Shown in pieces: positions 2,558 to 14,420 of a DNA stretch of 20,108 nt. The stretch lies in IMG/VR virus record IMGVR_UViG_3300050821_016787, positions 1 to 20,108 of that record. One strand, given 5' to 3'. The number at the start of each line of letters is the position of its first letter. Position 1 is the stretch's first letter. The position numbers were made by a program, and so were the translations under genes. Source of the stretch: a virus. The notes below the pieces were generated by a model. It did no database searches, was not told the DNA's origin, and saw only the letters and a list, made by a program, of their open reading frames with translations.

Positions 2558-3031
2558 TTACACGGGCACTAGCCGAGTACAGTGCCCCTTGCGGCCGGCG
2601 CGAAAAATAAAATCAACGACGGCGCCTATGCTCGGCAATCTAGGGGACTTCACCACAGCCTCGAGTTTCCACAGTTCCTCTACTGCGTCCGCGGCTCCGG
2701 CAAGTGCAGGATCGTCGCCAGTAAGCAGTAGAATTGGCAAGCTGCAGTCGTACCGAGCAACGGTCATCATGACATAGCAGCCGTCCTGCCCCTTACAATC
2801 CAAATCGGCCACGACTCCCATTGGACGATATTCCCGCAGCGCACTAGCCAGGTCCCGTTCACTGGGAAACCTCTCAACGGCGATATCAAGAAAATCGCAT
2901 ATCGGCTGGAGCGCGGCAGCGATCCCATCTCCGTCCTCAACGATCAACAACAGCGGATGCCGCTGTATCGGCACCGTATTGCGAGCGCTGTCGGCGGGCT
3001 CGATTTCGATCAAACGCTGCATAAAGGTCAT
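2558..3031 (-). CDS. stand-alone response regulator receiver protein (157 aa)
   Basis: The ATG at 3031 has an ideal ribosome site, GGAGGTG, a few bases upstream; the longer frame would start at a TTG without such a site. A CheY-like receiver domain covers about residues 26-147. PLLLIVED supplies the acidic pair (E32, D33), D76 in VADLDCKGQDG is the expected phosphoacceptor, T104 in LLLTGDD is the conserved Thr, and K128 in VVKSP is the conserved Lys. There is no output domain, and the about 25-residue N-terminal tail is not part of the fold. It would be phosphorylated by a histidine kinase encoded elsewhere and act by protein contact. It stands alone, converging on the DUF6065-like gene and upstream of no kinase in this window. 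Confidence 0.85.
   Translation of the reverse strand: MTFMQRLIEIEPADSARNTVPIQRHPLLLIVEDGDGIAAALQPICDFLDIAVERFPSERDLASALREYRPMGVVADLDCKGQDGCYVMMTVARYDCSLPILLLTGDDPALAGAADAVEELWKLEAVVKSPRLPSIGAVVDFIFRAGRKGHCTRLVPV
2564..2587. terminator. inverted repeat between two convergent genes
   Basis: GGGCACT (2564-2570) and AGTGCCC (2581-2587) form a perfect 7-bp stem with a 10-base loop, 14 bases after the stop of the DUF6065-like gene and inside the last codons of the convergent response regulator. There is no U-run on either side, so it is not a classic intrinsic terminator. It may slow polymerase from both sides. Confidence 0.3.
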
Positions 3032-3207
3032 TATCACCTCCAACGTCTTTCATTCCTGCATCTCAGCAGAGCTCATTTAGCCCTGTTAGCGACATCGGCG
3101 AGTGTGCGACGAAAGCGGCACTTGTTAAAGTCCACAGATGGTCAGTTCATCGTCAGTTTGCGGGAAAAAAGCGCGAAAGTGCGTGAATAGCCAGGGCCAG
3201 CCGACGG

Positions 3208-10758: not shown

Positions 10759-10908
10759 ATGGAAATGCATTTGGTAGTTGTGAGACCGTTCGATGGTTTC
10801 TCACGCGGTGACGTGATCACGGATTCCGCGCGAATCACCAGTATCCTCAGAAGTGAGCGCGCCCATTACGTTGTGCGGGTAGCCGCGCGGATGCCGGGAG
10901 GGGCTTGA
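10759..10908 (+). CDS. small conserved-looking neck protein (49 aa)
   Basis: This ORF is short. ATG 10759 follows TTGGAGCC, and a second Met is at 10765. The peptide MEMHLVVVRPFDGFSRGDVI continues with TDSARITSILRSERAHYVVR and ends MPGGA. It has a beta strand, the GD-V-I turn and one helix: the shape of small SH3-like or winged proteins often found before a sheath gene. Its stop overlaps the reading frame of the sheath gene. It looks real because the spacing fits the operon and codons are unbroken. Confidence 0.6.
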   Translation: MEMHLVVVRPFDGFSRGDVITDSARITSILRSERAHYVVRVAARMPGGA

Positions 10909-10913
10909 CACCA

Positions 10914-12476
10914 ATGCCGATCGTCCAACAAGGCAGCATCAATACGACGGCGCTTGTGGTGCCAGACCTCTACGTCCAGATAGTGCCACCCCAGAATTTG
11001 GTCCTAAACGGTGTTCCGACCAACGTGGTTGGTGTCGTCGGTACCGCGTCGTGGGGTCCGATTGCACAGCCCGTTATTGTCGCCACCATGGCAGATTACG
11101 CGCGAAGCTTTGGTCCAATTATCGCCCGGAAGTATGATATGGGAACCCAAATCGCTACGGCGGTTCAACAGGGGGCTCAGAATTTTCGGTGTGTTCGCGT
11201 CAGCGATGGAACTGACACGGCTGCGCAGGTTGTTGTCCCCGGGACGACCGCCTCCTTTACAGCACTCTACACGGGCTCGCTAGGCAATCAGGTCAACCTG
11301 ACACTGCAACCCGGCACGGGACCGAACACTTGGCGACTGGTAGTGACACTGCCCGGATTGCAGCCTGAGGTCTATGACAATATCGGGGGAACCGGCGCAC
11401 AGTTCTGGATCTCACTAGCGGCAGCGGTAAACCAGGGCCAAGGTTCGCAGCGTGGGCCCTCGCAGCTTGTGATCGCAAGTGCTGGTGGTGCGACCGTGCC
11501 TCCCGTAGCCTTCGCTACGACGCTCGGTATGAGCACGCCGGGGTCAGATGGGGGAACTAACGTATCATCTGTGCAATTGATCGGCACGGACATCCCTCCA
11601 CGCACTGGCATGTACGCCCTAAGAGGCCAGGGTTGCGGTATCGCCGTTCTGGCCGACTCGGACGATCCCAACCAGTGGACAACTCAAGCAGCTTTCGGCC
11701 TCCAGGAAGGCATCTACATGATCCTTACGGGCCCGGCCGGCGACACAATCCAGAATGCTGTCACTGTAATGCAACAAGCCGGACTCGACAGCTATTCTGC
11801 AAAGCTGATGTTCGGCGATTGGTTATGGTGGTCTGATCAGGTGAGTGGTACAATTCGGTTGGTCTCCCCGCAAGGATTTGCTGCGGGCCGGCTTGCAAAC
11901 CTATCGCCGGAGCAATCAAGTCTAAACAAACAGATCTATTGTGTCATCGGTAGCCAGATGTCCGGGACCCCTGGCTCGGGTCAAAGCACGTCGTACTCGG
12001 CAGCGGATCTTGCGGTATTACTTGGTGCAGGGATCGATGTAATATGCAACCCGCAGCCTGGCGGAAGCTACTGGGGGGTGCGCGGAGGTTTTAACTCATC
12101 ATCCAATCAGGCCACGAACGGCGACAACTATACGCGCCTTACCAATTACATCGCTGCTACCCTCGCAGCCGGAATGGGTCAGTATGTAGGCCAAGTCATC
12201 AACGCCAACCTATTCCTTGGTATTCGCTCATGCCAACTCTCGTTTCTGCAGAACATGCTTGGGCAAGGTCTGCTTGGCAGCATCGATGGAAGTCTACCAT
12301 TCAGCGTGATTTGCGATTTGTCGAACAATCCACCGAGTAGAACTGGTCTCGGCTACGTCCAGTCAGACGCGCAGGTGCAATACCAGTCAATCAATGAGAA
12401 GTTCATCGTCAACGTAGAGGGAGGTCAGACAGTCCAGGTGTCCGTTCAGACCCTTCCAACTGGGCAAACGACATAA
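10914..12476 (+). CDS. contractile tail sheath protein (520 aa)
   Basis: The frame opens at TTG 10905, but ATG 10914 (MPIVQQGSINTTALVVPDLY) is preferred; GGGAGGGG lies 10-17 bases upstream. The N-terminus is followed by VPTNVVGVVGTASWGPIAQP, a typical sheath opening for anchoring the strand-exchanging arm. Later come GTQIATAVQQGAQNFRCVRV, a middle domain with LQLIGTDIPP-like strands, DLAVLLGAGIDVICNPQPGG, and a C-terminal part with DAQVQYQSINEKFIVNVEGG, then VQVSVQTLP. The sheath contracts to drive the tube through the target envelope, so this is a myovirus-type tail rather than a siphovirus tail. The tube gene follows 12 bases later. Confidence 0.9.
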   Translation: MPIVQQGSINTTALVVPDLYVQIVPPQNLVLNGVPTNVVGVVGTASWGPIAQPVIVATMADYARSFGPIIARKYDMGTQIATAVQQGAQNFRCVRVSDGTDTAAQVVVPGTTASFTALYTGSLGNQVNLTLQPGTGPNTWRLVVTLPGLQPEVYDNIGGTGAQFWISLAAAVNQGQGSQRGPSQLVIASAGGATVPPVAFATTLGMSTPGSDGGTNVSSVQLIGTDIPPRTGMYALRGQGCGIAVLADSDDPNQWTTQAAFGLQEGIYMILTGPAGDTIQNAVTVMQQAGLDSYSAKLMFGDWLWWSDQVSGTIRLVSPQGFAAGRLANLSPEQSSLNKQIYCVIGSQMSGTPGSGQSTSYSAADLAVLLGAGIDVICNPQPGGSYWGVRGGFNSSSNQATNGDNYTRLTNYIAATLAAGMGQYVGQVINANLFLGIRSCQLSFLQNMLGQGLLGSIDGSLPFSVICDLSNNPPSRTGLGYVQSDAQVQYQSINEKFIVNVEGGQTVQVSVQTLPTGQTT

Positions 12477-12488
12477 CGAGGTATCCCT

Positions 12489-12917
12489 ATGTCATTTACG
12501 GCGTTCTCTGTTGGTCGAGATACACAACTTGTCGTCATGGGACCAAATGGCCGCGTAGATCTGGAGCATGTCACCGCCTTCGAAAGTCGACAGCTAACTC
12601 AATCGGTGCGCGTCAGTCGATTGGATGGAACCCAGTTGGGCACCGAACTGCCCAAAGGTTGGGAGGGCAGCTTCGAACTCGAGCGTGGTAACTCGGTAGT
12701 AGAAGACTTTATTGCTGCCACCGAACTGACATACTTCAATGGCGGAAGCTCAAGCTCCAACACCATGTACCAGTACATTAACGAGACGGACGGGTCAACC
12801 TCGACATATCAGTATGATGGCGTTACCTTTAAGCTGGTCAACGCGGGAATCTGGAAAGGTGAAAGCAGTGTCAAGCAGAAGCTCGAGTTTTTTGGCGTCC
12901 GTAGGCGTCGCATCTGA
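12489..12917 (+). CDS. tail tube protein (142 aa)
   Basis: A small beta-rich protein directly after the sheath: MSFTAFSVGRDTQLVVMGPN, then EHVTAFESRQLTQSVRVSRL, GWEGSFELERGNSVVEDFIA and a C-terminal KGESSVKQKLEFFGVRRRR. ESRQ with a long strand and the ELERGN block fit the tube fold, which stacks as hexamer rings inside the sheath. AACGAGG precedes the ATG by a few bases. Its stop overlaps the chaperone start (TGATG). Confidence 0.85.
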   Translation: MSFTAFSVGRDTQLVVMGPNGRVDLEHVTAFESRQLTQSVRVSRLDGTQLGTELPKGWEGSFELERGNSVVEDFIAATELTYFNGGSSSSNTMYQYINETDGSTSTYQYDGVTFKLVNAGIWKGESSVKQKLEFFGVRRRRI

Positions 12918-13282
12918 TGACCCCAGCGGCGACAATTGTTGCTAAGGCAACCGAAGCGCGGTCTGTTGTAGACAGCTTAGGGCGACGCCTTACACTTCGG
13001 AGTTTGACGGCGCTGGATAAGCTACGAATCTTTAAGGCGGCAGGGCCGGAACTTGCTCTTAACCAACCCTGGCTCGCTATGGCGATTCTGGCAAGTTCGG
13101 TGACCGCTATCGATGACATACCGGTACCTCCGCCCTCCACTGAGACTCAGATAGAGGCACTCGTAAGTCGGCTAGGTGATAGCGGGATTGAGGCAATCGC
13201 CGAGACGATCGAACCGTTGAGGGAGGTCGGCGAGACCGAGCAGGTCACAAACGCGGGAAACTCGTCCGGCACCCCGAGCTGA
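12917..13282 (+). CDS. tail assembly chaperone, short (gpG-like) form (121 aa)
   Basis: ATG 12917 lies inside the tube stop. The product is helical: TEARSVVDSLGRRLTLRSLT, KLRIFKAAGPELALNQPWLA, MAILASSVTAIDDIPVPPPS, then an acidic end EAIAETIEPLREVGETEQV. This is the usual place and size of the zero-frame tail chaperone, which coats the tape measure during tail building. The end of the gene contains a -1 frameshift signal (13255-13317), and the zero-frame stop (13280-13282) lies within the stem. See the longer frameshift product. Confidence 0.8.
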   Translation: MTPAATIVAKATEARSVVDSLGRRLTLRSLTALDKLRIFKAAGPELALNQPWLAMAILASSVTAIDDIPVPPPSTETQIEALVSRLGDSGIEAIAETIEPLREVGETEQVTNAGNSSGTPS

Positions 13283-13434
13283 CCGACTGCCTTTATCTGG
13301 TCAGAAACGGGGTGCCGTTCGATGTTGCCTTTTCGCTGCCACCGGACGAGCGCATGGCGTACGTGGTCACTTTCGGCATGCTAGATGGACAACAGTTTGA
13401 TTGGCGAACGCTACGGTGGAGGCAATCAACGTGA
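12917..13434 (+). CDS. tail assembly chaperone, -1 frameshift (gpGT-like) form (172 aa)
   Basis: Slipping by -1 on GGGAAAC (13255-13261) leaves the first 115 residues unchanged, ending TNAGN, and continues LVRHPELTDCLYLVRNGVPF, then DVAFSLPPDERMAYVVTFGM and LDGQQFDWRTLRWRQST to the stop at 13432-13434. The extra 57 residues have no suitable start codon of their own early on, so they are best read as an extension. In lambda-like tails the G:GT ratio set by the same kind of slip controls tail assembly, the T part binding the tube. This entry is a joined product: 12917-13261 plus 13261-13434, with base 13261 read twice. Confidence 0.8.
13255..13317 (+). other. -1 programmed frameshift site: slippery heptamer plus stem
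   Basis: Zero-frame codons GGA (13256-13258) and AAC (13259-13261) with the preceding G give the canonical X XXY YYZ heptamer G GGA AAC. After a 5-base spacer (13262-13266) comes a perfect 9-bp stem, CGGCACCCC (13267-13275) with GGGGTGCCG (13309-13317). Inside it is a second 5-bp stem, TGACC (13280-13284) with GGTCA (13299-13303). The spacing and stem strength are those of known stimulators. Confidence 0.85.
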
Positions 13435-14420
13435 TGTTCTTCTGCCGTGTCTTTCTCTGACAGCATCGTATTGTGATCAATCCGTCGACACTAGACTCGA
13501 TGCATCCTCGGGGTAATGGAACCTCCACACACATATTTGCGGTGCGACGTAAGATTCGCGCACTCGACAAGATTATTGGTCACTCGTCGACCGGATTATC
13601 CAGGCTTCTACGTATCGCCGACGGAATAGTCGGAGGCAAGATCGGGCGCCTCTCGTGGGTCAAGCCGACGTTGCTAGCACGCGGACAGCAGCGACAAGGC
13701 CGGGCGACGATGATCACTACACTGGGGCTGTCGCCCCGCGTGCTCCGCCAGTATCGCCCTCTTAGGGTTCCTCTGGGTCAATTCCATCCACCAGCGATAT
13801 CGCGGCCGTTTCAAGACACGCGGCTGCACACCCAATGGCTCACGTCACCGCAGCTCAAGACGCCAGTTGTTGGGGCCGATCGCACCAGAACGGAACCACG
13901 CCAGGTAAACGGGCTAGTCAGCCAGCAGGTACAAATACCCGCACCAATGCCTGGGCGATCTCAACGCCTTCGGGTAGCCCCATCGATAGCGTTCGAATCC
14001 ATCGTCCAAGTGGTTGCATCGCGGCTCTCGGATTTCGGCAAAACCATCGGAAAATCTCAATCGTTATCGGAACATGCCCGCTCAACTAGAACCGGAAGCG
14101 CTCCCGCAATCGCTTCGTTCGTGTATAACGATGCTCTTGCAGGCTCGTTTAATCATATAACACTGCCCGTGAGCAGGTCCTCCGAGGCGACTACGCCCCC
14201 GTCCCTATCCCCGAACACGGCCGTATCTCGCCTAAAGACGGTGCAGAGCGACCGAAGCGGAATCAGAGGTAACAATGAAAAGGAAGCCAAGAACAGAAAG
14301 GGGGATCTTTACCTTGAGAGTTCCGTTCTTGGTCGCTGGCTACTCGAGCATCTGAACCAAGAAATCAGCCGTCCCCGTGCTGGGACCTCGGCTGTCGACT
14401 CTCGAATTACACCATGGTAG
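13434..14420 (+). pseudogene. tape-measure-slot protein, N-terminus apparently disrupted
   Basis: The natural coupled ATG (13434, overlapping the chaperone stop) runs only eight codons to TGA at 13458. Downstream in the same frame is a long open stretch (usable from GTG 13473, 315 aa) ending TPW. Other frames near the start read like pieces of the missing N-terminus (VSFSDSIVL from 13447, DQSVDTRLDASS from 13475), which would need two single-base shifts. The body is basic, Pro/Arg/Gln-rich and lacks the hydrophobic helices of a tape measure. The end GDLYLESSVLGRWLLEHLNQ seems coherent. Expected here is the tail-length ruler that the chaperone loads. I cannot name it firmly, and it may be inactive. 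Confidence 0.45.

Follow-up and report, generated by a model that had tools for sequence, protein, structure and literature searches.

The window, by which we mean the whole 20,108-nucleotide stretch of viral DNA analyzed (IMG/VR record IMGVR_UViG_3300050821_016787), carries terminase, portal, capsid, sheath, and baseplate genes that surround the gene considered here, indicating that the DNA belongs to a contractile-tailed phage or prophage. Downstream of the sheath gene lie, in order, a tube-sized gene, a gene for a 121-amino-acid (aa) protein, and an open reading frame (ORF) in the position of a tape measure gene (Table 1). At the left contig end, positions 50 to 502 of the minus strand encode a fragment of an IS66-type transposase (PF03050, 1.4e-14), and a small response-regulator-receiver-like ORF on the same strand (2558 to 3043; PF00072, E = 1.1e-5, below the curated cutoff) adjoins the phage genes.

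Table 1. Positions in the window of the candidate frameshift signal and of neighboring tail genes
Feature	Positions	Strand	Evidence
Tail sheath gene	10905..12476	+	phrog_23, 4.6e-44
Putative tail tube gene, directly upstream	12489..12917	+	phrog_12993, 5e-40 (no assigned function); position and size
Short form, probable G-like tail assembly chaperone, zero-frame ORF, 121 aa	12917..13282	+	ORF, PHROG matches, 2ob9 fold match
Two-frame overlap, from upstream stop of -1 frame to zero-frame stop	13189..13282	+	
Slippery heptamer G GGA AAC	13255..13261	+	RRRAAAC in 164/165 relatives
5-nt spacer, TCGTC	13262..13266	+	First codon is the zero-frame stop in 114/165 relatives
Lower stem, 5' arm	13267..13276	+	8 to 9 of 9 core pairs in 140/141 distinct sequences
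Lower stem, 3' arm	13308..13317	+	Folding and conservation of core pairs
Upper stem, 5' arm, containing zero-frame stop	13279..13285	+	Well preserved only where the stop is at +18
Upper stem, 3' arm	13298..13304	+	Folding
Zero-frame stop TGA	13280..13282	+	
-1 extension, 57 codons, putative T-like part of 172-aa fusion, stop TGA at 13432-13434	13261..13434	+	Conserved terminal FDW....W motif
Next long ORF, 315 aa, putative short tape measure	13473..14420	+	Position; counterparts of ~290 to 490 aa in relatives

Near its end, the 121-aa ORF contains the heptamer G GGA AAC, in which GGA and AAC are zero-frame codons, followed after a short spacer by a hairpin. The arms of its lower stem, CGGCACCCC (13267 to 13275) and GGGGTGCCG (13309 to 13317), are perfectly complementary, as are the inner-stem arms TGACC (13280 to 13284) and GGTCA (13299 to 13303), and the zero-frame TGA lies inside the inner stem. 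Reading base 13261 a second time adds 57 residues in the -1 frame. An original prediction, made from the letters of the DNA, had proposed this arrangement, and all of its coordinates for the heptamer, the spacer, both stems, the buried stop, and the extension were confirmed on the sequence. It had also placed the -1 stop over the next ATG; the overlap is real (13434 to 13436), but this ATG opens only 8 codons and was rejected as a gene start, the next long ORF beginning at the GTG at 13473. GGGAAAC alone is not rare, with three occurrences in the window versus 2.2 expected. We therefore rejected heptamer rarity as evidence, and the case rests on the register, the location of the site in a 91-nt frame overlap, the hairpin, and conservation.

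The 121-aa protein matched phrog_20383 (4e-16), a PHROG family without an assigned function, and weakly matched phrog_508 (tail assembly chaperone; E = 0.006); searches of Pfam and of PDB sequences assigned it to no family. The best PDB match of its predicted structure (pLDDT 84.6) was the HK97 tail assembly chaperone 2ob9, a weak match (E = 0.18, probability 0.75, TM 0.42, 16% identity), and several of the matches to the model in BFVD are named tail assembly chaperone (E = 0.004 to 0.2). The combination of gene order, frameshift signal, and weak fold match makes it very likely, although no one similarity settles the matter, that this is a G/GT-type tail assembly chaperone gene, in agreement with the original prediction. 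In Komagataeibacter phage phiKX2, the corresponding gene precedes a tail completion gene, after which comes the gene for a 742-aa tape measure (phrog_28). The ORF in tape measure position in the window, for which Pfam and PHROG searches returned no family match, encodes 315 aa versus those 742 aa; if it is a tape measure, at ~1.5 Å per residue it would specify a very short contractile tail. A tail completion gene (phrog_5/phrog_26) between the chaperone and tape measure genes was seen in relatives (L061:5515-5895, and phiKX2 at L083:6467-6979) and is absent from the window, where its start may survive as the 8-codon ATG at 13434.

To compare the signal among relatives, we searched IMG/VR with the fused protein, which returned 542 related stretches, and read the best 80 of the 542; further loci came from bacterial genomes (75 loci), phages phiKX1 and phiKX2, and 10 relatives of these two phages. 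Most of the loci in bacterial genomes come from Acetobacteraceae or further members of Rhodospirillales, and the outliers are listed under the names Limnoglobus and Paraburkholderia; the relatives of the window thus point to a probable host of the Acetobacteraceae/Rhodospirillales type. GGGAAAC was in register and the downstream part in the -1 frame in all of the first 81 loci (81/81). Among the loci with both halves, the -1 relation held in 165/165 and an in-register heptamer was present in 164 (GGGAAAC in 137 and AAAAAAC in 27). The sole relative lacking the heptamer (L144:3280-3420) keeps the -1 frame and has CAT TTT CCG at the site and a damaged 5' stem arm; it may slip by a single tRNA on T TTT or may represent a decaying prophage. 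As the fusion had served to find these 165 loci, we searched again with the N-terminal part alone, which is blind to the extension, and GGGAAAC with an open -1 extension was found in 80/80 loci (with fewer than 50 codons in two). Many contigs are shared with the first set, and so the second search tests for bias and should not be read as independent sampling. In Burkholderia-type relatives, TAG comes straight after AAAAAA(C/A/G), and a -1 frame lies downstream, 57 codons long in the 13 of 19 measured. These relatives have the heptamer and the stop without the 9-bp stem, suggesting that the stem is not needed everywhere.

Folding the window with RNAfold extended the stems to 10 and 7 bp, with a minimum free energy of -35.1 kcal/mol (z = -5.3 versus dinucleotide shuffles). 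Across 141 distinct sequences, each core pair of the lower stem, nine in all, is formed in 94 to 100%. The stem arms code for conserved residues (RHP and NGVP), and the third codon positions in the lower stem are also frozen (Val as GTG in 141/141, Gly as GGG in 135/141, and His as CAC in 133/139). Downstream, third positions vary freely (Val as GTG in 27/130 at codon 21 and Gly as GGG in 19/131 at codon 38), and outside the stem, Val and Gly codons of the -1 frame end in any of the four bases. When codons were randomly exchanged for synonyms at the codon usage of the family, the lower-stem pairs fell from 8.9 to 6.2, and the native fold energy of the window was reached by 0 of 200 recodings. 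The mean z score over the 141 sequences, whose relatedness this comparison leaves in, was -4.1, whereas control stretches taken from the same ORF gave -0.2, and the effect recurred in distant members (phiKX2, z = -4.1; L151, z = -4.5). Because third positions are nearly fixed inside the stem and variable elsewhere, and because recoding loses pairs, the pairing is not a by-product of the protein sequence: the lower stem is conserved beyond coding needs, and selection acts on the RNA stem. Together with the conservation in relatives, the recoding results rule out a chance origin of the signal.

The original prediction had pointed to relatives as a test, through conservation of the heptamer, the spacer, and stem covariation and through retention of the -1 frame. 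The heptamer (164/165), the -1 frame (165/165), and the lower stem (140/141) are kept; covariation is scarce overall, with few compensating pairs. The pairing-preserving changes that we observed were the replacement of C-G by U-A at pair 12-50, seen in four loci, and of C-G by U-G at pairs 11-51 and 14-48. This scarcity reflects the offset of the two arms in codon register, which sets third positions in one arm opposite first positions in the other. A Shine-Dalgarno-like upstream stimulator was also considered and is not general, being present in 36/141 sequences.

The slip could be real and the hairpin kept for some other role, such as mRNA stability, a binding site in the RNA or DNA, or terminator-like control between the chaperone gene and those after it. 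This reading draws on the near invariance of the stem in sequence as well as in pairing, and on the Burkholderia-type relatives that manage without it. The invariance, however, is accounted for by the register, as the first positions faced by third positions belong to conserved codons, and in all carriers the stem begins 5 to 6 nt past the heptamer, the usual distance for a stimulator. We therefore consider a separate role unlikely and regard the hairpin as a probable stimulator of slipping.

It is also conceivable that two separate genes are present, the downstream ORF having its own start, used through coupling or reinitiation once ribosomes have reached the zero-frame stop, and the heptamer being incidental. 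The stop and the extension are close enough for coupling to be physically possible, and phiKX2 is annotated in this way, with the second coding sequence starting at an internal ATG. Coupling, however, needs no heptamer, yet the heptamer is in register throughout the relatives found with the fusion, save one, and in all of those found by the N-terminal part; moreover, conservation (NLxRHP) extends to the residues encoded between the heptamer and any internal start. Two genes are thus very improbable. The phiKX2 locus (L083:5929-6470; LC644976, PhiKX2_400/_410) was deposited as two separate hypothetical proteins, bearing out the expectation in the original prediction that annotation would miss such a site; its sequence, with AAAAAAC-TGA and the same hairpin, supports one frameshifted gene. 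Joining of the frames by transcriptional slippage, to which the six-A run of the AAAAAAC members could expose the polymerase, or by a sequencing or assembly indel can be dismissed almost entirely, as GGGAAAC, the most frequent site, contains at most three identical bases in a row, the agreement of 165 contigs in their frame relation excludes an indel artifact, and a hairpin at a fixed spacing of 5 to 6 nt, kept against synonymous drift, fits ribosome pausing.

Programmed -1 ribosomal frameshifting is thus the almost certain explanation of the locus, a tail assembly chaperone gene carried by a contractile-tailed phage or prophage whose host is an acetic-acid-type bacterium. We infer that most ribosomes would stay in the zero frame and produce the 121-aa G-like protein, whereas a minority would pause against the GGCACCCCG/CGGGGTGCC hairpin with the P- and A-site tRNAs on GGA AAC. 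The paused tRNAs would slip to GGG AAA, and translation of 57 more codons would yield the 172-aa GT-like protein. If the two proteins act as lambda G and GT do, the 121-aa form would coat the tape measure protein, recruitment of tube subunits would fall to the 172-aa form, and the ratio of the two would matter.

The position of the zero-frame stop differs among relatives. It directly follows the heptamer in 114/165 loci, lies at +18 inside the upper stem in 49/165, including the window, and lies at +3 in one. On a tree of the N-terminal domain (FastTree, 112 columns), which gives only rough counts of change, the stop class changes ~14 times, with at least 7 changes forced by well-supported branches, and the first letter of the heptamer changes ~5 times. 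The upper stem retains 5.45 of 6 pairs in the class with the stop at +18, versus 3.95 after recoding, and 5.8 in the clade of the window; outside this class it is weakly kept (4.16 pairs versus 3.51 recoded). We therefore rejected the buried stop as a defining feature. The original prediction had presented the two-tier stem enclosing the stop as the characteristic layout; by sequence comparison, it is the version of the window's clade, and the lower stem characterizes the Acetobacteraceae-type lineage. Given the stemless Burkholderia-type members and the moving stops, the common denominator is the heptamer with an early stop.

In Escherichia coli, GGGAAAC and AAAAAAC are inefficient, yet they are very likely used by insertion sequence elements (PMC4066793), and AAG is shifty there because of a single lysine tRNA (PMC5009743). 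In five of six genomes carrying relatives, we found lysine tRNA anticodon arms with both CTT and TTT, and in the sixth, which is fragmented, TTT only. This pattern fits the idea that AAG would slip poorly where both lysine tRNAs are present. Both lysine tRNAs are common in many bacteria, and AAAAAAG occurs in three Burkholderia-type contigs. For these reasons, and because AAG slip sites have been noted in hosts with both tRNAs (PMC4066793), the idea stays a suggestion only. More broadly, and quite tentatively, we speculate that the locus carries a lineage-specific recoding cassette, in which sites that are poor in E. coli (GGGAAAC/AAAAAAC) would be made to work in two-lysine-tRNA hosts by a hairpin whose arms interlock, out of codon register, with invariant residues, and in which the zero-frame stop shifts between the post-heptamer position and the upper stem, possibly tuning the short-to-long ratio. 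The repeated stop moves with constant ...AAC heptamers in such hosts amount to a natural experiment on the efficiency of bacterial -1 frameshifting.

Signals of this type are already known in tailed phages, and the window represents a well-supported addition in which slipping is predicted. A large and mostly unannotated family, whose function is unassigned in PHROGs, thereby gains a firmly supported candidate frameshift with a conserved RNA stem. The window resembles lambda G/GT in having a -1 slip site near the end of the chaperone gene, between the tube and tape measure genes, with short and extended products; family searches with the window protein found no similarity to lambda G/GT. The lambda heptamer is GGGAAAG, whereas that of the window ends in C, is followed by a conserved hairpin, and belongs to a phage with a contractile tail. 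Knowledge of tail chaperone frameshifts dates from lambda G/GT, and the phenomenon was generalized in 2004 by Xu, Hendrix, and Duda (cited in PMC5009743); both GGGAAAC and AAAAAAC have been predicted as slip sites in haloarchaeal viruses (PMC5009743). Burkholderia phage KL1 has GGGAAAC directly before TGA at gp18/gp19, predicted by motif (PMC3483164), which is the majority layout of the window's family, and Caulobacter phages phiCbK (AAAAAAC) and Colossus (GGGAAAC) have the same two heptamers in chaperone genes preceding the tape measure gene (PMC3556154) and are phages of Alphaproteobacteria. These are likenesses of motif, and all three phages differ from the window in being siphoviruses. Among solved structures, HK97 2ob9 is the closest to the 121-aa model, at the weak level given above. 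In contrast, Komagataeibacter phages phiKX1 and phiKX2 (LC644975 and LC644976) are true relatives (33 to 34% identity) that share the 9-bp stem and the -1 extension, differing in having A for G in the heptamer, the stop directly after it (AAAAAAC-TGA), and an annotation as two hypothetical genes.
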